IMG/VR virus record: IMGVR_UViG_3300047157_000094 | Span: 1-60,742 of that record | Source: a virus | Length of the DNA: 60,742 bases | Strand: one strand, 5' to 3' | Part shown: piece by piece, positions 6,771-17,458 of the stretch | How positions within the stretch are numbered: position 1 is the stretch's first letter | Layout: every line of letters begins with the position of its first letter | Translations under genes and position numbers: made by a program | The notes under the pieces: model-generated | What the model saw: only the letters and a program-made list of their open reading frames with translations | Databases searched by the model: none | Told to the model about the DNA's origin: nothing

Positions 6771-8989
6771 TATCTTCTTCCTCCAGTTTGTATATCTAAC
6801 CTAAAAGTCCCTAATTTCCAACTAGTATCTACTGCAGTATTGGATATTGTAAGAGCGATAGCTCTTGCTCTTGCACGTGTGTCTACTTTTTCAGTTCCAG
6901 ATGTTACAGTAAATGGACCTAATGATGAACTAGCTGCTGTATTATTAGGATAGTTTCTTAAATCTAATTGTATAATAGTGTTCCTTGCTTGAGATATAAA
7001 ATCAGGTATAATTCTACTTACTCTCATAATATTTTCACCATCACCTCTAAGTCTCCTAAATTAGTTGCAGCTCCTCTAATAACTTTTTGTGTAATATCAT
7101 AATCACCAGAAGTAATATTAGCTGGAATAGCTGTTGTTACTCCAAGTCTTACTTGATTAACTCCTGTTTCATGTTCATAGTAATATGAAATTCCTTCTGT
7201 GTTTCCTGTTACATCAAAAGATGTATCTGTTCCTGCATCGTATTGAGTTGCATGTGGTAATCCAAATACAGCAGAATCAATCCAAGTTGTTCTAATAAAT
7301 AAAGAACTTGCATTACAAACCATATAGGTCGTTTAGCAGTTGAGTCTAGATAACTATAAGTAACTGACTGTGTATTTACATTTGAGTTAGCTTCAGGATA
7401 AAACCATGTAACTTCTCCAAACAAGTTATTAATACCTGCATAAACCATTTGATTAGATGTTGTATTTAAATTATCATAAACATAGTCTTCAACTAAACAG
7501 TCCATAGATTCTAGTTTACCTGTGTATCTAAAGAAACCATTATCAGACATCCAGTACGCAGCACCATCAACTTCAACAGCTGCATTCTTACCTATTAATC
7601 CACAGTTAGTTCCGACTTGTTCAAAGGCAAAAGTAAAAGGAGTTCCAACAAAACGCATGGTAAATAAAGCTGTGTCTGTCCAAACATAAAGTGCATTTCT
7701 ACCAAGTTTAGCACCCATGATCCGTGATCCGGCGGCCAGTCTTTGTGTACCAGCACTATTAGTTCAGCTGTAGGTGTATAATCATTTATATTTTCTTGAG
7801 ATGAGAATCTTATAAACATATCATCTTGTGTTGTTTTATCACCAATAGTTGTTTCTGTTCCAAAAAATACTAAGTGACGATCAGGAGTAGATACTAACAT
7901 ATCTCTAGACGCTGTTGGTGCACCAGATATAATAGTTGCTCTTGTTGTTACAGCATTAGTTAAATCTGAATTCCATTCAAAACATTCACCATTAAATATT
8001 AAAGCAATGGCTGTGCTACCTAAATTATCTATAGACCACATACCGGGTTCTGCAACTTTATCCGTGGTCGATGCTGCTTGACCCCAGGCTGAGTAAGCAC
8101 TAAAGTTAGTAACTGTTGCACCATTACTGTGAGAAGCGTTTGTTGTGCCTCTAACATTTCTAGTAATTCCAGTAAAACTTGTAGCTGTAATTCCTGTGTA
8201 AGATATTTCTTCGTTATCTACTTGTATAAAATTTGTTCCTGAACTTGGAAAACCTGTGGTACTTGCTACATTAATCGTGGTCCCTGAACCACCAGTTCCA
8301 GCAGAGTCGGCATTTAATGCTCCATTCAATGTAGTAGTTTGTGGATTTGTAACAGTACCACCCCACTGAGATATACCATAACCAAAGACTCCAACCTGTT
8401 CAGCTGGTCCTACGTGATAATATTGAAAATAAGTTATGCCTCCAGAAGTAGTTGCTCCTGCTCCTCCTTCATTTCCAGGCATTGTAATAGTTAATGTAGT
8501 TCCTGTTGGTGTTGATGTTACCATAAATTTTTTATCACAAAAATCTGCAGCACCAAAATTTGAACCTGTAATAGCACTAAAAGTAGTTGTGTCACCAAAT
8601 AAAATTATATCACCTGGTTCAAAATTATGTGCTGATGGAAAAGTAAGAGTTACGGTAGGTGATCCATTACTTGTGCTAAAAGCATTTGTAAGAGCTGTGC
8701 CTGATGGATTAGTTAAAGGATGTATATCATAGTATACTCCTCCTGTGTAAACGTATAAAATTCTATTAGTTCCTATTAAAGAATATTTAATACCTGTTTT
8801 ATTAACCATGTGATGCAAACCTCTAGCCGCACCAGTTAATTTACTATCACCTAATTGAGACCAACCACCTATTTTTTCAGGTGTACCATATCTAAAACGT
8901 ACATTTTCACCTCCTGTCCATTGTGATTCAGCTCCGGTGGATGTAACTTGTTTATTAAATCCTGGTAAAAAACCTAGTTTTTGTAGCAT
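6770..8989 (-). CDS. Hub / DNA-stabilisation protein, P22 gp10-like candidate (three frameshifts)
   Basis: Four consecutive frames make one protein of about 740 aa: 8989 to about 7730, then to about 7325, then to about 7060, then to 6770. The N-terminus (FLPGFNKQVTSTGAESQWTG, then GARGLHHMV-type and YSLIGTNRILYVYTGG blades) and the C-terminus (PFTVTSGTEKVDTRARARAI, TFRLDIQTGGRR) match the blade-like tail-hub or packaged-DNA-stabilisation proteins of podoviruses (P22 gp10 type). Inside is a short module, VASTTGFPSSGTNFIQVDNE then ISYTGI...TRNVRGTT..SHSNGA, that also occurs in the protein at 21145-21942. The broken frames are attributed to sequencing indels because homologous segments continue across each break. 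Confidence 0.75.
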
Positions 8990-9049: not shown

Positions 9050-9595
9050 TTAAGAAATATACTCTAAATATTGGCCTGCAGCATAGTGTAAATTAAAGAC
9101 TATAGCATGTTTTGGTTTGTCTTCAAGATTAGGTTTAGATTCATGTCTTAATAAACTGTCCCAAAATAAAATTCTACCTGGTTCAGGTTTAACATGAAGT
9201 TTAAGTTCAGGAAAAAATAATTTTTGATTGCTACTAGTTAAATAAAGTATACCTGAAACATTAGCCTGTCCATGCCTGTGATTTGCAGTCCAATCTCCGC
9301 GATCAAGTCTAATGCCGTAAGCGTCTGATAACGTATACTCTGGATTTAATAAACCTGTAAATGCAGACAAATAATCTTTACTGGCTGTCATAATAGCTTT
9401 AAAACTAGGATTTTCTAAAAAAATATTTTCTGTTCTTTTTCCTTTAACATTGCTCTTGTAATTCCATTCATTATTATTCTTTAACACATCATCTATTATT
9501 TCTATAAAATCTGTTCCGTCAAAATTATCAAAGTCAAAACCATAGAGGCAGGTTGATCTCTTTATTTCTTTTTCAATTCTTAATGCAAATTTCAT
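9050..9595 (-). CDS. 2OG-Fe(II) oxygenase-like protein, cassette member 9
   Basis: A 181-aa protein of the double-stranded beta-helix dioxygenase type. H106-x-H108 (NHRHGQANVSGILYLTSSNQ), the PGRILFWDSLLRHESKP strand with H151, and K162-HAIVFNL form the core. The ILYL-strand and FW.S...H spacing fit the phage 2OG-FeII_Oxy_5 family, although the usual Arg that binds 2-oxoglutarate is not obvious (Lys at that place). The ATG overlaps the end of the preceding oxygenase gene. It is the last gene of the cassette before the hub. The substrate is unknown. Confidence 0.7.
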   Translation of the reverse strand: MKFALRIEKEIKRSTCLYGFDFDNFDGTDFIEIIDDVLKNNNEWNYKSNVKGKRTENIFLENPSFKAIMTASKDYLSAFTGLLNPEYTLSDAYGIRLDRGDWTANHRHGQANVSGILYLTSSNQKLFFPELKLHVKPEPGRILFWDSLLRHESKPNLEDKPKHAIVFNLHYAAGQYLEYIS

Positions 9596-10131
9596 ACTTT
9601 ATAATCTTCCTCAAGTGTATCAAAATCTAGGTTAAATGATATAATAATTTTTTCTATATCTTCAGTTATTTTAGGTGATCTGTGCACCACAAAACTAGGA
9701 AAAATAATTATGTCCCCTTCTTTAGCATCTATCTCTAATATTTTTTGTTTGTTGACTAACTGTGTTTTCGTAGCACCTTTTGGAAATTGTAAATAATATA
9801 CTCCTGTATAATTGTTACTATGTATATGCCAGTTATGCACTCCGTTTTTTTTATATTTTTGAAACCATAGGTTTCTAATATGCACAGTGTTTAACTTTAA
9901 ATTTTTAATGCATTTTAAAAAATGTTTTTCTAGTAAAGGTTTTATAAACCTCACCCATTCTCTATCCATATCTGTGCTTTTTTGCCAATCTAAATAATCA
10001 ATTTTATCTTTAGGATGACAATCAAAATCATTTGCAGCTTTGTTTATAAAATTAATTAATTGATCTTGAATTAAATTATGGTGTTTAAACCTGTCTTGAA
10101 ATCCATAGGACTCTAATATTATTTTTTTCAT
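9592..10131 (-). CDS. 2OG-Fe(II) oxygenase-like protein, cassette member 8
   Basis: The start is placed at the ATG overlapping the upstream stop (TAATG); an in-frame upstream ATG at 10143 is less likely. Counting from 10143, H106-x-H108 (HNWHIHSNNYTGVYYLQF) and H154 (DIIIFPSFVVHRSPK) give the Fe-binding triad, and FNLDF closes the fold. The usual 2OG-binding Arg appears as Lys (K165). This is the HxH subtype of the family, like members 1 and 9. The N-terminal 90 residues are helical and unlike the other members. Confidence 0.75.
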   Translation of the reverse strand: MKKIILESYGFQDRFKHHNLIQDQLINFINKAANDFDCHPKDKIDYLDWQKSTDMDREWVRFIKPLLEKHFLKCIKNLKLNTVHIRNLWFQKYKKNGVHNWHIHSNNYTGVYYLQFPKGATKTQLVNKQKILEIDAKEGDIIIFPSFVVHRSPKITEDIEKIIISFNLDFDTLEEDYKV

Positions 10132-10706
10132 TAATAACACCAAGATACAAATGAGTATCTTGTTCCTTTTTTTATAGGTTTAATTAAATGCGGGTACATA
10201 AAAAGTGATGGAAATATAATTAAGTCCCCAGCTTTAAGTTTTATTTTATAGTCATTAAACATAATCAAATCTCCTCCTGTATAATCATCATTTAAAACTC
10301 CTATAATACTTAGTATGGGGATACCTCTAATTTCTCCTGTAAACAAACTATGTATATGGTCACAATGCTTAGACATTATTTGGTTTTTTTTATATCTATT
10401 AAATCTAATTTTACTAAAACCGTTCCAACCATTAAAAATTTCTCCCCCTATTTTATCAATAAGAATATATTTTTCTAAAGCTTTCCAAGTTAAATGATGT
10501 AAATCTTTAAGATGTGTTAAACTATTTCCATTACAAACATCTAATTCTTTATTACCATTTTTAGATTGTTTCTTAAATTCTTTTGAATAAGACCACTGAT
10601 GTTGTTCCCAATTTTTTTCTTTTGTTAACTCTTTAATAGTAACATTTAAAATATTTTTAGGAATCCATTTATTTAAATGAAGTATATAACTTTTTAAATT
10701 TTTCAT
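10131..10706 (-). CDS. Prolyl-4-hydroxylase-like 2OG-Fe(II) oxygenase, cassette member 7
   Basis: A complete 191-aa protein with the canonical triad H114-x-D116 (SKHCDHIHS), H173 (YPHLIKPIKKGTRYSFVSW) and R183 for 2-oxoglutarate. The GGDLIMF strand and AGDLIIFPS strand are typical of P4H-like phage enzymes. All predicted catalytic residues are present. It is coupled to the genes on both sides. The substrate could be a protein, glycan or small metabolite. Confidence 0.82.
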   Translation of the reverse strand: MKNLKSYILHLNKWIPKNILNVTIKELTKEKNWEQHQWSYSKEFKKQSKNGNKELDVCNGNSLTHLKDLHHLTWKALEKYILIDKIGGEIFNGWNGFSKIRFNRYKKNQIMSKHCDHIHSLFTGEIRGIPILSIIGVLNDDYTGGDLIMFNDYKIKLKAGDLIIFPSLFMYPHLIKPIKKGTRYSFVSWCY

Positions 10707-11278
10707 ATTATTTTAAAATTAGCTGACACAGATATTCTTTCTCCGTTACTTGTAAAAGGACATACGTAATGTTTTAAGTTATAAGGAAATATAAAAAAAT
10801 CTCCTTTGTTAGGTAAAAATTTTTGTTGATCAATGTTGTAGTCTCTATATTCTCCATACGAAAAAATTATAGATCCAGGACCTGAAGATTTTCCTATGTA
10901 CTTTTTGTTTTCTTTTTTTAATGCAGAAGGTATTTGTAAATATAGAACACTAGATAGATCACAGTTTATATGATGGTGTGGAGGATTAGATTCATTTTTT
11001 TTCATATAATTTACCCATGCTGAATTACATTGTAATTTTAATAATTGCCTGTTGTACCAGAAATGAAACCTTTTTTGAAAAGGTTGGAAATAAGGTTCAA
11101 CAATTTTTGCATATTTTTTTTCATCAATAACGTGTTCACTTTTAATAACTCCAGCTAAAATATCTCTAGCGTCTTTATTTTTTTTACTACAAAGTTTTTC
11201 TACTTTAGATAAGTCTTGTGTGTTTAGTTGTGTCTTATACAACAAAGGACCAAACATGTGTTGTTCATAAGTTATCAT
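10703..11278 (-). CDS. 2OG-Fe(II) oxygenase-like protein, cassette member 6
   Basis: A 191-aa protein with HHH at 101-103 (NPPHHHINCDLSSVLYLQIP), H170 (FFIFPYNLKHYVCPF) and R181 (GERISVSANF). This matches the 2OG-FeII_Oxy_5 layout: HPH-like box, short YL.. strand, FP...H, R.S...N. The start overlaps the stop of the frameshifted member 5. The protein is clearly diverged from its neighbours, so the cassette did not arise by a recent tandem duplication. Confidence 0.8.
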   Translation of the reverse strand: MITYEQHMFGPLLYKTQLNTQDLSKVEKLCSKKNKDARDILAGVIKSEHVIDEKKYAKIVEPYFQPFQKRFHFWYNRQLLKLQCNSAWVNYMKKNESNPPHHHINCDLSSVLYLQIPSALKKENKKYIGKSSGPGSIIFSYGEYRDYNIDQQKFLPNKGDFFIFPYNLKHYVCPFTSNGERISVSANFKII

Positions 11279-11764
11279 AAATAGTTAAAGTTTATTACAA
11301 TCCTTCTGTCTGTATCTGTTGCAGTTACTGCAGCATGGTATGTTTTTGTATCTATAATTAATAGTTTATTTTCTTCTACCGCAATTTTAGTTTTATCTTT
11401 TAATAAAGTATAGCCGTTATTTTTATTTATGTAAAATATAGCTGTATTGCAAAAAAAACTCTTTGTCGACATGAAACTCTGATTGTGTATGTTTTTTAGT
11501 TTTAAATAATAAATTAGCTCTTATTTCATTTATCATATTAACTTTAAGTTTTTTAATTATAGGTGTTATGATTGTGTCGTAATAAATAGAATTTTTTTGA
11601 TGGTCATGATAAAAGTTATGTCCCATAAAAAAACTATCATTTTTACCTGAAGTTTGAGACTCATTAAAAAACCAAGGAAAAGTATTAGATAATATTATTT
11701 CTTTAATTTTGTTAAAGGTGTCTTGATCAAGAAAATTTTTTATTTGTTTATATTTATATTCCAT
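11275..11764 (-). CDS. 2OG-Fe(II) oxygenase-like protein, cassette member 5 (frameshifted)
   Basis: Two frames make one gene. The first, from 11764, carries H98-x-D100 (SEFHVDKEFF). A single indel near 11455 moves to the frame that contains the other half: LLIIDTKTYHAAVTATDTDR with the distal His, then RRIVINFNYL with the Arg. The break falls in a run of A/T. The combined length (about 163 aa) and the D/H/R spacing fit small T4-like cyanophage-type dioxygenases. Confidence 0.72.
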
Positions 11765-12078
11765 TCTAACGCATCAATAATTTCATCTAGATTAATTTCT
11801 TTTAACCTGTGTGTGATAATAAAACTATGCAACTCTGCTGCTTCAACAATAACCCATTTATCTTTTTGTTCGAAAACAATTTTATCTGCTTTAGATTTAT
11901 TGGTTAGTGGTTTTACATCTCGACCTTCGTCATCCATCTGATACGGCCTAAGATCGTATTTTAATTTTTCATTTAATCTGTTTTTTAATATACCAACTAC
12001 ATCCCAAAGTTCTTTTTCTTTTTGTTTTTTAGTAGCCTGTTTAACGTTAGTTAAATGTTTTTTTATAAAATCTTTCAT
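11740..12078 (-). CDS. Unknown cassette protein between oxygenases (112 aa)
   Basis: Complete 112-aa ORF overlapping both neighbours. It has a basic N-terminal helix (KKHLTNVKQATKKQKEKELW) and an acidic C-terminal half with IVEAAELHSFIITHRLKEIN. No Fe-binding triad is visible, so it is not an oxygenase. It is the only cassette member other than the carbamoyltransferase that lacks an oxygenase fold signature, which makes it a candidate adaptor or accessory protein. Function unknown. Confidence 0.65.
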   Translation of the reverse strand: MKDFIKKHLTNVKQATKKQKEKELWDVVGILKNRLNEKLKYDLRPYQMDDEGRDVKPLTNKSKADKIVFEQKDKWVIVEAAELHSFIITHRLKEINLDEIIDALEWNININK

Positions 12079-12662
12079 ACTGTAAAGTCAAAATTTATAA
12101 CAGTTCTTTTACTAAAATCAATAGGGCAATTTCCTGAGTGATATATACCGCCATCAAAATATATAGCTCTTCCTTGTTTAGGAGATATTCTTTTATTTAC
12201 CACAGCATCAGCATCTAATAATATTTCATCAGATATTTTATTTTTAAAAAAAACACTGTCGCCATCAGAATCATCTACATAGTATAACAAAGTTTTGTAA
12301 GGCAAATGATCTTTAACATCTATGTGAGGTACGTTGTATTTTTCTTTAGAATGATTTTTAATTCTAAACGTTCTTCTTATTCTAACTCTTATCATGTCTT
12401 TTATTTTTACTTTTTCTTTAATAACAAAAAAATTCAATATGGTTGAAAACAAATTATAGTAATCAGAGTTTATTCCTTTTTCATTATATAGGGTATGAAT
12501 ATGTGCAAATGTTTTAGTTATGTTTGGATTAATAAATTTTCTATTTTCTTTCTGATGAATAATATTATCTGTATAAAACCATGCAATTTCTTCACTGTCT
12601 AATAATTCAATATATTTATTTTGTATATTTAAAGGTACAAAATTATCTAAAATTTTTATCAT
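12075..12662 (-). CDS. 2OG-Fe(II) oxygenase-like protein, cassette member 4
   Basis: A 195-aa protein with H113-x-D115 (NVPHIDVKDHLPYKTLLYYV), H175 (YFDGGIYHSGNCP) and R186 (KRTVINFDF). GRAIYFDGGIYHS is a familiar strand in cyanophage dioxygenases. All metal and cosubstrate residues are conserved. The start ATG overlaps the upstream stop (TGATTAAA-type coupling near 12659-12662). The substrate is unknown. Confidence 0.8.
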   Translation of the reverse strand: MIKILDNFVPLNIQNKYIELLDSEEIAWFYTDNIIHQKENRKFINPNITKTFAHIHTLYNEKGINSDYYNLFSTILNFFVIKEKVKIKDMIRVRIRRTFRIKNHSKEKYNVPHIDVKDHLPYKTLLYYVDDSDGDSVFFKNKISDEILLDADAVVNKRISPKQGRAIYFDGGIYHSGNCPIDFSKRTVINFDFTV

Positions 12663-13258
12663 GTTGTTTCTCTTTTAAATGGATATCCCAAATGAGGTCT
12701 ATCGTCATAAAGATTTTTATCCCAACCTTTTGTTGCTTTATTGTTGTAGTGTAAAAATACTTGACCACACATATAACCTTCAAAAGGTTTTCTCCAATGA
12801 GGTAGAATAGTTCCAGAATATAATAATGCATCTCCTGCATTTAATTCAACTTTAATTTCTTTTCCTTTAGTATTTTCTAGATATATGGGCCACATGTCAC
12901 CACCTAAATTTAAAGTGCCGGAGATTTCACAACTAAATCTATCTTTGTGTTTTTTTAAAATGTCTCCATTTTTATATAACCTAGTGTATGTGTAGGTAGG
13001 AGATAACTTAAGCTTTGTTTTTTTTTCTAGCGTTTCATTAGTAGCTGCTAATAATGTTTCCATAGCAATATCTGAATAACAAGAATAGCTTCCAGGTGCT
13101 TGCTCGTCACCATCAAAACCCAACAGTTTATTATTTATGTTTAATCTTTTTAAAGAATAAAAAGTTTGTTTTTTCATTCTTAAATAATTAAATAAAAAAT
13201 TAGCTAGTTCTTTACTAATTATATTTCTACATATTTGATATTTATTTTTATTAAACAT
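12659..13258 (-). CDS. 2OG-Fe(II) oxygenase-like protein, cassette member 3
   Basis: A 199-aa protein with H104-x-D106 (LKKHKDRFSCEISGTLNLGG) and distal H154 (GTILPHWRKPFEG). The AGDALLYSGTILPHWR strand is characteristic of a phage dioxygenase subgroup whose C-terminus ends in a short basic tail. The usual Arg ten residues after the distal His is not evident. It lies between two other oxygenase genes and overlaps both. Confidence 0.76.
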   Translation of the reverse strand: MFNKNKYQICRNIISKELANFLFNYLRMKKQTFYSLKRLNINNKLLGFDGDEQAPGSYSCYSDIAMETLLAATNETLEKKTKLKLSPTYTYTRLYKNGDILKKHKDRFSCEISGTLNLGGDMWPIYLENTKGKEIKVELNAGDALLYSGTILPHWRKPFEGYMCGQVFLHYNNKATKGWDKNLYDDRPHLGYPFKRETT

Positions 13259-13871
13259 AAGGTTTTCCTACTGTCCACATTACTAAACTATACCTTGTTC
13301 CTTTTGTTATAGGTGTAACACGATGCCATACAAATCCAGGAAAAAAAATAATAGAACCTTGTCCTAAATTACATTGATTCATATTTGATTTATTTTTTTC
13401 CAAAGGTGTTTCAACGTTGTTATTGTAACCTATTTCTAAATCACCCCCACTATATTCTTTAGGGTCATTTAATAAAACACTACAAGATATTTTTCTTATT
13501 TTTCCTTCATATTGTGAAAATTTATGATTTTTAAAAGGTTGATAAAACGAATCCATATGCCAATTATAATATTGTCCTTTTTCATATTTAGTAAATTGAA
13601 TGTCTTCATTCCAGCTAACTTCAAAATTCCAACCCGCATTTTTATTTGCCATATGAAGATAGGGATTTAATTTTTTATAAACTTCTTTATCAAACACCCA
13701 TTCTATAGAAGAATTTCTACGTTTTTTATTTGCAATAGCTTTTTGTTTTACGCCATCCCCACCAATTTTACCTTTTTTAGTAGCCCTAGGTTTGTATGTT
13801 TTTATTATATTATCACACCATGTTTTATCTAAAACATTTTTAAAAAACCATACGTTATGTTTTAAATGCAT
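13251..13871 (-). CDS. PKHD/P4H-type 2OG-Fe(II) hydroxylase, cassette member 2
   Basis: A complete 206-aa enzyme with H105-x-D107 (YYNWHMDSFYQPF), H183 (FVWHRVTPITKGTRYSLVMW) and R193. GGDLEIG and GSIIFFPGFVWHRV are textbook P4H/PiuC-type strands. It is among the clearest oxygenases in the window. The ATG overlaps the stop of the carbamoyltransferase gene, which supports co-translation and possibly a shared substrate. Confidence 0.87.
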   Translation of the reverse strand: MHLKHNVWFFKNVLDKTWCDNIIKTYKPRATKKGKIGGDGVKQKAIANKKRRNSSIEWVFDKEVYKKLNPYLHMANKNAGWNFEVSWNEDIQFTKYEKGQYYNWHMDSFYQPFKNHKFSQYEGKIRKISCSVLLNDPKEYSGGDLEIGYNNNVETPLEKNKSNMNQCNLGQGSIIFFPGFVWHRVTPITKGTRYSLVMWTVGKPYV

Positions 13872-15532
13872 TATTGATAAATCCTTTCTATGTCTGCAAA
13901 ATATATATAATCTATATCTGATTCATTAAAAGTTTCTATGGCATCTTTAGGAGATTCTACTAATGGTTCCCCTGCTAAATTAAAAGAAGTGTTCATTAAT
14001 ATAGGCATCCCTGTTTTTTTATTAAATAATTTTAATAATTTATATAATACCGGGTTTTGTTTTTCATTAACTGTTTGTATTCTACACGTGTTATCCACAT
14101 GTATCACTGCAGGGATTTTATCTTTAACACCTTCTTTAGCTTCAACAGCATATAACATATACGGAGATTCTTTTAATCCGGCCATGTCAAACCATTTATG
14201 TGCTTCCTCTTCTAAAATAGATGCACCAAAGGGTCTAAACCATTCTCTATTTTTAACTTTGTTCATTATGTCTTTACCATTTTTAATCCTAGGATCTAGT
14301 AACAAAGATCTATTTCCTAAAGCCCTAGGTCCTGCTTCGGCTTTACCTTGATATAAACCAACAATTTTTTGATTAATTAAATGTTCAACTACAGTCTCTA
14401 TTTTATCATTACCTTTTTCTATATCGTAAACAGGTTCAGGTCCTAAATAAATATTATCAAAATTATTTCGTGTTCCACAATATTTACCAAAAGTTATTGC
14501 AGCTCCAATACTATTGCCTTCATCACCACATAAAGGATCAATATAAAGATTAATGTCTTTAGGCAAAAATTTTTTTAACCTATAGTTAAAAACAACATTT
14601 AATGCACAACCACCGGTTATAATAATATTTTTTGCGTTGTTAGCATATCTATTTAAAACTTTAATCATTTGATACTCAAATTGTTTTTGACTTTCATAAG
14701 CTATGTCATAATGAATTTGTTTATATCCTAATTTTTTGTGATAATAAAGTTCTGGGTATTTTTCAACATTAACATTAAAGTTAATATCTTTGTTATATTT
14801 ATCTTTATAGACAAATAAATCATCTTTCAATAAAATCTCTTTTATCTTTTTATTAGGTTTTCCATAAGCTTGTAAACCCATAAGTTTTCCTTCATCGTTT
14901 GTTTTAAAACCCAAATGATTTGTCATTCTACTATAAAAAGCTCCGGAAACAGGTCTATGATCTACATCAAAATTTTCAAATCCTTTTAATGTAATTGCAT
15001 CCATAACAAAGTCAAAACCGTAAATTTCATTAGCTCTTACTTTTGCTTTATGTCCTTCCCTAGTAGTTTGTAATCTTTTATATAAACAATCGAACCCGTG
15101 TTCGATACTTGCAAAGTACACAGAAAAAACTTCATGTCCTTGTTTACCATTATCCAATATATAATTAGAACCTCGACCATCAGCTACTAATATTACTGCT
15201 TCATCCATATCAGTAGAATACATGGCTTTTACTGCATGATTTAGATGATGTGATTTATAATAATGAACTGCATTTTCATAAGGAGAATCAATTAAACCCA
15301 TCTTGTACATATAACCATAAACAAGATGAGCATCGTGAGTGTTATATCCTGTAACAACTACTTTATCTATTTTAATATTTAATTTTTTAATTTCATTTAA
15401 AGTGTGTATGGGAAAAAAACTATCGTTTTTAATTTTAGATAGTCTTTCTTCTTGATTATAATAAACTAATTTAAAGTCACAAAATAAAGCAACTGATGAG
15501 TTATGATTTTTTTGTAATCCTAATATGTTCAT
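13871..15532 (-). CDS. NodU/CmcH-family O-carbamoyltransferase
   Basis: A complete 553-aa protein. The N-terminal Kae1-like domain has HHLNHA (95-100), DGRG (118-121), EGKLMGL (214-220), TGGCALNV (306-313) and DEGNSIGAA (337-345). The C-terminal YrdC-fold domain begins near residue 385 and has AGPRALGNRSL (400-410), FRPFGASIL and the closing MNTSFNLAGEPLVESP segment. These are the metal-, carbamoyl-adenylate- and substrate-site motifs of the NodU/NovN/CmcH family, which moves a carbamoyl group from carbamoyl phosphate to a hydroxyl of a sugar or small molecule using ATP. It sits between oxygenases 1 and 2, so a hydroxylase could make the hydroxyl that this enzyme carbamoylates; that coupling is inference. 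Confidence 0.92.
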   Translation of the reverse strand: MNILGLQKNHNSSVALFCDFKLVYYNQEERLSKIKNDSFFPIHTLNEIKKLNIKIDKVVVTGYNTHDAHLVYGYMYKMGLIDSPYENAVHYYKSHHLNHAVKAMYSTDMDEAVILVADGRGSNYILDNGKQGHEVFSVYFASIEHGFDCLYKRLQTTREGHKAKVRANEIYGFDFVMDAITLKGFENFDVDHRPVSGAFYSRMTNHLGFKTNDEGKLMGLQAYGKPNKKIKEILLKDDLFVYKDKYNKDINFNVNVEKYPELYYHKKLGYKQIHYDIAYESQKQFEYQMIKVLNRYANNAKNIIITGGCALNVVFNYRLKKFLPKDINLYIDPLCGDEGNSIGAAITFGKYCGTRNNFDNIYLGPEPVYDIEKGNDKIETVVEHLINQKIVGLYQGKAEAGPRALGNRSLLLDPRIKNGKDIMNKVKNREWFRPFGASILEEEAHKWFDMAGLKESPYMLYAVEAKEGVKDKIPAVIHVDNTCRIQTVNEKQNPVLYKLLKLFNKKTGMPILMNTSFNLAGEPLVESPKDAIETFNESDIDYIYFADIERIYQ

Positions 15533-16134
15533 AGTTTTAATTCTGTTAATGTTTGTCTTGAACCAAAGTCTCCTTTTGCAAAAACGTTAAAAGCTAGACT
15601 TATTCTTTTACCATAAGTTTCTTCAACATTACCAACTTCATGCATTAAACAAGAAGGAAACAAAATAATTTTATTTGTAGCTGCAGGTATCCACCAAGTA
15701 TCTGAATTATATTTATTAAATTGTTTAGGGTATACTTTAATTTGATCGTAAACATTTTTTTTAAATCTAATATAATCAAACTTTGGATTTGCATTTATAT
15801 AATAAACGCCAGATATAATAGAGTTAGGATGAGAGTGTGGATAGTGTACTTGTTTTTCATTCGTGTAGTTTAACCAAGATTGTGTAATATAAAATTTTAA
15901 ATTACTTGAAGGTTTTAATATTTGATCAACGTATTCTTGAATAAAAGAATTAATTTGTTTTTTTAAATTTTTAAAAGGTTTTTCGTCAAGAATGTAAGTA
16001 TTTTTACTTTGTAAAACTTTAAACTCCCAATCTGGTTTTGTTTCATATTTAAAAAAATTTTGTAAAGTAGTTTTAGATAAAGGCTCTAAATATTTTTCGC
16101 ATATGGGGGTCGGAAATAGATCTATTATATTCAT
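15529..16134 (-). CDS. 2OG-Fe(II) oxygenase-like protein, cassette member 1
   Basis: A 201-aa protein opening with NIIDLFPTPI, the typical start of the 2OG-FeII_Oxy_5 family. H100-x-H102 (VHYPHSHPNSIISGVYYI), FPS then H165 (LMHEVGN) and R177 (GKRISLAFNVF) are in place. It is the first gene of the cassette, after a 50-bp A/T-rich gap from the fibre gene block, so a promoter for the cassette could lie just upstream; no clear -35/-10 pair was found there. The substrate is unknown. Confidence 0.85.
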   Translation of the reverse strand: MNIIDLFPTPICEKYLEPLSKTTLQNFFKYETKPDWEFKVLQSKNTYILDEKPFKNLKKQINSFIQEYVDQILKPSSNLKFYITQSWLNYTNEKQVHYPHSHPNSIISGVYYINANPKFDYIRFKKNVYDQIKVYPKQFNKYNSDTWWIPAATNKIILFPSCLMHEVGNVEETYGKRISLAFNVFAKGDFGSRQTLTELKL

Positions 16135-16184: not shown

Positions 16185-16646
16185 CTAACTAATTTCCCAA
16201 GTATTGGTGTTTGTGTCCCAGTGATAAGAAGTCATTGGGTCTTCTAAAACATTCTCGCTTTGCCATCTGTAATTTTCTTCACTCCAATAGCACCATCTTA
16301 ATATTACAGTATCACTTACCACTAGACTTTCATCTGTTGGTTTTGTTACTGGAGCTTGCCAATCATCATTAGAATCTAGTATCCATGAAGCATATGGTTG
16401 TGGTCTTATAAATTTATCTTTAACAGCATCATAAGTATCTCCTATTCCTGCATTTTGTTTTCTAAATGCATTTGTAGAAGAACATTGTTTCCAAACTCCA
16501 CCTTTAAAAAGATTTGTGCAATAAGTTTCTCCATCAACATGCATGTCATTTTCACCTAAAGGACCATCCGATGTTGGTACGTCATTACCAATTTTAACAG
16601 TTTGAGTAACTACGTTGTTTTCGTCTAATTTTGCAAATGATGCCAT
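16185..16646 (-). CDS. Fibre-associated protein of the cyanophage-like MASFAKL family (153 aa)
   Basis: Complete 153-aa ORF. It begins MASFAKLDENNVVTQTVKIG and contains AFRKQNAGIGDTYDAVKDKF and YASWILD, the signature blocks of a small protein family common beside tail-fibre genes in T4-like cyanophages and other marine phages. The C-terminus is Trp-rich (RWCYWSEENYRW). It probably takes part in the distal fibre or its receptor-binding tip. Overlaps the stop of the glycine-rich gene. Confidence 0.8.
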   Translation of the reverse strand: MASFAKLDENNVVTQTVKIGNDVPTSDGPLGENDMHVDGETYCTNLFKGGVWKQCSSTNAFRKQNAGIGDTYDAVKDKFIRPQPYASWILDSNDDWQAPVTKPTDESLVVSDTVILRWCYWSEENYRWQSENVLEDPMTSYHWDTNTNTWEIS

Positions 16647-17458
16647 TACTCTACTGTAAGTGTCCCCGACACTGTAAAGGTAGCTACTTTTTGTCCTCCT
16701 GGAGCAGTTGCTACAGTATTTGTTCCTGGTGCAACAGTTAAAGTTGCGGCCGCTGGAGCGCTAACAATTACAACACCTGAACCGCCAGTACCATTTGGAG
16801 GAGAGCTATCAAAACCCATTCCGCCGCCTCCGCCGCCTTTTCCGTTGGTTCCATTAGATCCTGAAGCTGTTCTACTACCTCCGCTTCCACCGCCGTCTTG
16901 TGCTGGTCCTGGTCCTGGACTTGGAATGTAACCTCCGCCACCTCCACCGCCAGCGTATTCTACTGAAGATCCTGATACAGAGCTATCTCTTCCAACTCCA
17001 CCGGCTCCTCCGGCTGGAGTAGATGTTCCTCCACTGCCGCCAGCTCCTCCGCCGCCAGAATTAATTTGTGTTCCAGCAGGGTTTCCTTGTGGTGGACTAA
17101 CTGGGGGATTGTTACCTGTTTTAGAAGGATATTGAACTGAACCACTTCCACCATTAGCTTCGGGGTTACCATAACCGCCTCCACCGCCACCGGTTGAAGT
17201 AATTGTACTAAAAACTGAATTTCCTCCTCTTGGACAAGAGTCATTTCCTGGAACAGGTCCTGAACCTGTACCGACTGTAATTGTGTGATCTCCTCCCTCT
17301 AATTCTATAACAGCAGAATCTTCAGAAGTTCTAAAACCTCCGGCTCCGCCGCCACCTCCGGCTCCGCCACCTCCGCCTCCGGCAACGACTAAATAATTAA
17401 CTTCGTAGACAACTGAACCGCCGCCTGATCCAAATCCTAAAACTTGATATCCAAACAT
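16646..17458 (-). CDS. Glycine-rich tail-fibre tip/adhesin-like protein (270 aa)
   Basis: Complete 270-aa ORF, about one third glycine. It begins with VNYLVVAGGGGGGAGGGGGA and has many further GGGGG runs separated by Ser/Thr/Pro segments, ending in VVIVSAPAAATLTVAPGTN and a short beta C-terminus. VVAGGGGGG repeats are typical of phage receptor-binding tips and glycine-rich adhesins, where poly-Gly-II helices pack side by side. It follows the main fibre gene with a good ribosome site (AAGGAGAATAAAAT before the ATG). Confidence 0.82.
   Translation of the reverse strand: MFGYQVLGFGSGGGSVVYEVNYLVVAGGGGGGAGGGGGAGGFRTSEDSAVIELEGGDHTITVGTGSGPVPGNDSCPRGGNSVFSTITSTGGGGGGYGNPEANGGSGSVQYPSKTGNNPPVSPPQGNPAGTQINSGGGGAGGSGGTSTPAGGAGGVGRDSSVSGSSVEYAGGGGGGGYIPSPGPGPAQDGGGSGGSRTASGSNGTNGKGGGGGGMGFDSSPPNGTGGSGVVIVSAPAAATLTVAPGTNTVATAPGGQKVATFTVSGTLTVE

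Follow-up and report, generated by a model that had tools for sequence, protein, structure and literature searches.

Clusters of 2OG oxygenase genes in HTVC023P-type phages (PMC9599517) and carbamoyltransferases in cyanophages (PMC3037559) were both already published. In the pelagiphage genomes, a 2OG oxygenase adjoins every ferrochelatase (PMC9599517), and phrog_2954 was treated as a ferrochelatase family (PMC11561400). In marine metaviromic islands, Fe(II)-dependent oxygenases were placed under host recognition (PMC3909814). In the virus record described here, a carbamoyltransferase gene (CT) lies directly before an oxygenase gene (O8), and the initial annotation proposed this pair as a minimal unit within a larger cassette. 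The comparison of loci points to an oxygenase array beside tail genes, in which CT is an additional member.

The window, i.e., the whole of record IMGVR_UViG_3300047157_000094 (60,742 bases, 34% GC), encodes a family A polymerase. The record resembles HTVC023P-type pelagiphages in this polymerase, in its similar length, and in the array genes held in common. The nearest matches of O8 were found in Pelagibacter phages HTVC023P and HTVC033P, two cultured phages whose arrays include O8 and O7 but no CT. The source virus is a marine phage, kin of SAR11 phages. The array runs from 16134 to 9050 on the minus strand and is composed of nine 2OG oxygenase-type genes (O9 to O1), belonging to several 2OG-Fe(II) oxygenase subfamilies, together with CT and a further gene, X (Table 1). 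When the frameshifted O5 was taken as one gene, 10 of 10 junctions in the array overlapped, by 1-25 nt.

Table 1. Genes of the oxygenase array and its flanks in the window.
Gene	Description	Coordinates	Strand	Assigned from
G	glycine-rich (PF21722) tail/adhesin-type gene, upstream of array	16646..17458	-	
S	phrog_7759 protein, upstream of array	16185..16646	-	
O9	TIGR02466 / PF13759 2OG oxygenase	15529..16134	-	
CT	NodU/TobZ-type O-carbamoyltransferase, 553 aa, phrog_1601 Nol-like	13871..15532	-	Pfam, PHROG, motifs
O8	P4H/PKHD-fold 2OG-Fe(II) oxygenase, 206 aa, phrog_61	13251..13871	-	
O7	phrog_2954 (labelled ferrochelatase), predicted P4H-fold oxygenase	12659..13258	-	
O6	2OG-type protein, phrog_274 (labelled DNA endonuclease V), H113-x-D115...H175...R186	12075..12662	-	
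X	conserved protein of no known family, 112 aa, within array	11740..12078	-	
O5	phrog_274 2OG-type gene, split into two ORFs	11275..11764	-	
O4	PF13759 2OG oxygenase	10703..11278	-	
O3	PF13640 2OG oxygenase, phrog_61	10131..10706	-	
O2	phrog_81 / TIGR02466-like 2OG oxygenase	9592..10143	-	
O1	phrog_81-like 2OG oxygenase, last gene of array	9050..9595	-	
V7595	N-terminal part of virion structural gene (phrog_3287), closes array	7595..8989	-	

The ORFs of CT and O8 were confirmed as listed in Table 1. In CT, the Pfam search recognized Carbam_trans_N (1.9e-24; 87.2 bits against a gathering score of 24 bits) and Carbam_trans_C (3.1e-62; 209.5 against 27 bits), which we take to be a Kae1-like and a YrdC-like domain, respectively. 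The initial annotation had described the catalytic motifs of both proteins as complete. In CT, all of them were indeed found, i.e., H10, EERLSKIK, HHxxH (95/96/99), DGRG, GPRALGNRS, HVDNTCRIQTV, and NTSFN. The two domains and the HxxxH, DGxG, GPRALGNRS, RIQTV, and NTSFN motifs place CT in the NodU/TobZ family. CT was aligned with the solved carbamoyltransferases 7xb6 (the best, 1.3e-55), GdmN, and TobZ. Against the NodU equivalog NF041651, it scored 144.4 bits, below the cutoff of 1000. By family, CT would transfer a carbamoyl group onto a hydroxyl. For TobZ, PMC8670742 names W408, G421, and R423 as specificity residues. The best phage matches of CT showed 34-37% identity over the full length. 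Compared with relatives, dN/dS was 0.10-0.13 for CT and 0.25-0.38 for O8; these low values indicate purifying selection, and both are therefore maintained genes. Some loci encode two carbamoyltransferases (L163, L165, L176, L179, and L237), with an O6-type gene between them in the L165 type. In phage S-SCSM2R, a CT homolog covering the full query (L075:5001-6593) is publicly annotated as a 2OG-Fe(II) oxygenase.

O8 matched PF13640 (1.5e-14) over the gathering score. Its catalytic motif was complete as well, i.e., H105-x-D107...H183...R193, and invariant among 37 sequences. The HxD...H iron triad and the distal Arg for 2OG are those of P4H-type enzymes. This assignment, made in the initial annotation, was upheld by the predicted model (pLDDT 90.1), which has the P4H double-stranded beta-helix fold and matched best to vCPH, the collagen prolyl hydroxylase of PBCV-1 (Z 18.0, 2.5 Å, 160 residues). 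Other matches had tied scores, i.e., the P. putida P4H with EF-Tu (Z 17.6), PHD2 (Z ~17), and PiuC-type hydroxylases. PiuC was also matched in the profile search (8.9e-09), and the best score against the PKHD hydroxylase YbiX/PiuC equivalogs of NCBIfam, whose cutoffs are 143-399 bits, was 57.9 against 143. The nearest enzymes by fold (vCPH, PHD2, and the EF-Tu P4H) are hydroxylases of peptidyl proline. From the model, this may be the activity of O8 as well, as a candidate, with PKHD/PiuC folds scoring about equally.

At the junction TAATG, the stop of CT and the start of O8 share an A, i.e., a 1-nt overlap. The coupling proposed for the two genes is real as an overlap, but it is not distinctive among the array junctions, all ten of which overlap. 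At its start, CT shares 4 nt with O9; O8 is thus not singled out by the overlap geometry. The adjacency was kept in the clade of the window, where CT lies directly before O8 in 21 of 21 loci showing both genes (CT identity >=73%). The same order was found in L025-L028 (51% CT identity) and L064/L065 (~30%). However, the minimal unit was not supported. In a search made from O8 and independent of CT, 76 of 78 loci lacked CT; these loci came from the best 80 of at least 588 matches, so the rate holds for near relatives of O8 and not for all. CT abuts O8 in the two exceptions, L081, where O8 precedes CT, and L094, and the count becomes 4 of 80 when two loci known from the CT search are included. 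In loci spanning the tail gene to V7595, again among the best 80 of at least 588 O8 matches, O7 was present in 37 of 37 and CT in 1 of 37. O8 is the near-constant first array gene in HTVC023P-like phages.

From the CT side, the neighborhood search gave a mixed result, whereas from the O8 side the pair is rarely adjacent in related phages. L159 carries a CT that is 63% identical and a tree neighbor of the window clade, and there O8 lies near one array end and CT at the other. CT sits between O7 and an O5-type gene in L172, and it is apart from O8, or O8 was not seen in the locus, in L163, L030, L066, and L047. On the CT tree, five changes of the adjacency label were required. CT was found inside oxygenase arrays in ~13 CT lineages, with differing neighboring members. 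Same-strand abutment of CT and O8 occurred in ~6 of these 13, versus ~3.5 expected by hand calculation if CT were placed at random in arrays of recognized sizes; this excess is suggestive, not strong. The array has a core of O8 and O7 and a changing set of other oxygenases; CT is an optional extra gene, located beside O8 in this lineage.

O7 belongs to the family labelled ferrochelatase, and the O7 of HTVC023P carries the annotation putative ferrochelatase. In the family alignment, the motif H104-x-D106...H154 was invariant. The predicted model of O7 (pLDDT 92.7) showed a P4H-type fold, with the P. putida P4H and a PKHD-type enzyme as matches (Z 17.0). Among 33 O7-family members, no ferrochelatase Pfam match was found at E 0.1. 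Because the profile-profile comparison of O8 with O7 gave no significant link, as also that of O8 with O6, the kinship of O7 with the oxygenases is drawn from fold and motif. Given the model, the invariant HxD...H, and the absent ferrochelatase domain, the ferrochelatase label of phrog_2954 is very probably wrong. O7 as an array oxygenase itself would explain the 2OG oxygenase found beside every ferrochelatase in PMC9599517. If so, the published auxiliary metabolic gene pairing of 2OG oxygenase and ferrochelatase in pelagiphages (PMC9599517, PMC11561400) reads differently. In the literature searched, which left out most subscription journals, phrog_2954 was nowhere described as an oxygenase.

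In the TIGR02466-type oxygenases O9, O4, and O2, HxH...H replaces HxD/E...H. H100, H102, H165, and R177 were invariant in the O9 alignment, and HxH is common to the solved relatives 2rg4 and 3bvc. The phrog_274 proteins (O6, O5, and L079:7145-7630) are labelled DNA endonuclease V, and denV in cyanophage S-SM1. They match 2OG-oxygenase Pfam models weakly and have the HxD...H motif, which does not vary in the O5 alignment. In the O5 family, 11 of 27 members matched PF13640 at E <=0.01, with a best value of 6.8e-06; among solved structures, the O5 profile found nothing beyond chance matches. Judged by sequence, the endonuclease label is probably also mistaken. Contig L006, 99% identical to the window, lacks one base that the window has near 11451, and this extra base divides O5 into two ORFs. 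In all, indels of 1-2 bases against L006 lie at 11451, 7766, 7314, 7051, and 6988 of the window and split O5 and V7595; both are intact in L006, V7595 in one frame. The indels are probably sequencing or assembly errors. X had no PHROG match and was found inside the array of many loci.

The array is flanked by a glycine-rich gene of tail/adhesin type on one side and by a virion structural gene on the other. In all 59 O8 loci whose upstream sequence reaches 1.5 kb or more, G or S was found on the same strand within 3 kb upstream, and V7595 was downstream in 14 of 15 loci with at least 5 kb of downstream sequence. In the T4-like cyanophage S-SM1, a fiber gene is followed by S, directly before an oxygenase run. 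In S-CAM8, also a T4-like cyanophage, the surroundings of the fiber gene include CT, a gene of the O8 type, and more small genes resembling oxygenases. The layout is thus not confined to one virus family. The constant tail-gene neighborhood, the cyanophage arrays, and the placement of such oxygenases under host recognition in PMC3909814 point to the tail or adhesin as the likely site of the target. By pattern matching, a proline motif, e.g., NTPPVSPPQGN, was found in 64 of 89 array-side G proteins. It is a candidate hydroxylation site, and it may be general to glycine-rich domains.

We tentatively prefer a tail-linked tailoring operon, with CT as an optional member alongside O8. By family, the array oxygenases would consume 2OG and O2 in hydroxylating a substrate. 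CT would use carbamoyl phosphate and ATP to form carbamoyl-adenylate and would place the carbamoyl on a hydroxyl, either one made by any array oxygenase or one already there. The target could be a virion protein from the neighboring tail genes or a glycan on it. Our first guess is a tail adhesin, and the best candidate would be the Gly/Pro-rich protein G. The array content would then, as a guess, tune adsorption. A more specific form, i.e., a modular post-translational system in which exchangeable 2OG oxygenases and CT hydroxylate and O-carbamoylate the tail adhesin and so diversify receptor recognition chemically, seems rather unlikely. To our knowledge, no phage virion protein is documented to be O-carbamoylated, and the known acceptors of the NodU-family enzymes that we are aware of are sugars, antibiotics, or 5-hydroxymethylcytosine rather than proteins. 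Both points count against the tail-protein reading.

Alternatively, CT may act on a pre-existing hydroxyl of a host-envelope or virion sugar, with its place beside O8 reflecting a common insertion site in the tail module. The position of CT in the array shifts independently of O8, and related CTs mostly have no array-type oxygenase near them (75 of 80 loci in cellular genome collections). Beside a few cellular CTs, the neighbor domain scan gave mixed domains or none and no clear acceptor pathway. The CT of S-SCSM2R adjoins sugar epimerase and glycosyltransferase genes, and that of Mosig adjoins an arabinose-type aminotransferase gene. However, the CT of phage arrays is embedded among oxygenase genes and overlaps them, and no glycosyltransferase was seen in the array. 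We regard a sugar acceptor of this kind as somewhat doubtful.

A two-step relay, in which O8 hydroxylates the target and CT carbamoylates that same hydroxyl, has a precedent in cephamycin biosynthesis: there, the 3'-hydroxymethyl group that the NodU-family CmcH carbamoylates is produced by a 2OG hydroxylase. The conserved order in the window clade and L025-L028 fits the relay, as do the abutting genes of L064/L065, L081, and L094. It is nevertheless unlikely, given the lack of CT in nearly all independent O8 loci among the best 80 of at least 588, the six loci (L159, L172, L163, L030, L066, and L047) that separate the two genes or show no O8, and an excess of abutment over random placement that is suggestive, not strong. 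An improbable reading is that the oxygenases act, like the EF-Tu P4H, on translation factors or ribosomal proteins of the host, with CT as an unrelated accessory gene; the P. putida P4H of the EF-Tu complex ranks with the nearest folds for both O8 and O7, but neither the strict tail-gene linkage nor the fast turnover of array content would be expected for a conserved host target. DNA hypermodification, with CT making 5-carbamoyloxymethylcytosine, is highly improbable: the characterized 5hmC carbamoyltransferase has the same two-domain Pfam families, but its system co-occurs with a thymidylate synthase homolog (PMC8670742), whereas CT lies in a tail region and PF00303 had no match in this record, which could be incomplete, with positive controls.

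If the tailoring operon modifies tail proteins, marine phages akin to those that infect the ocean's most abundant bacteria would decorate their own adhesins enzymatically. Enzymatic decoration of adhesins that shapes host recognition is, as far as we know, hardly described in phages. Oxygenase clusters and cyanophage CTs are separately known, and CT within a tail-linked oxygenase array appears new in the literature searched. That search, with most subscription journals outside it, gave no account of CT as a member of such an array.

Compared with characterized enzymes, O8 shows fold likeness to vCPH of PBCV-1 and to PiuC/YbiX at ~20% identity. No collagen gene or siderophore context, as known for those enzymes, was noticed in passing in the window. 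CT shares the two-domain architecture and motifs of TobZ, GdmN, and NodU but is distant from them in sequence. It belongs to the same family as the Nol-like carbamoyltransferases of cyanophages (PHROG 1601; PMC3037559). In the T4-like loci collected, CT is mostly without an adjoining O8-type oxygenase, unlike in the window; S-CAM8 has one, on the opposite strand. The closest system is the oxygenase and ferrochelatase genes of HTVC023P-type pelagiphages (PMC9599517; PHROG 61 and 2954, PMC11561400), where the O8 and O7 families are likewise close together; in HTVC023P, O8, another oxygenase, and O7 lie behind an S-type gene. The word carbamoyltransferase is absent from PMC9599517. Compared with the HTVC023P type, the array of the window is longer, with approximately nine oxygenases, and contains CT.
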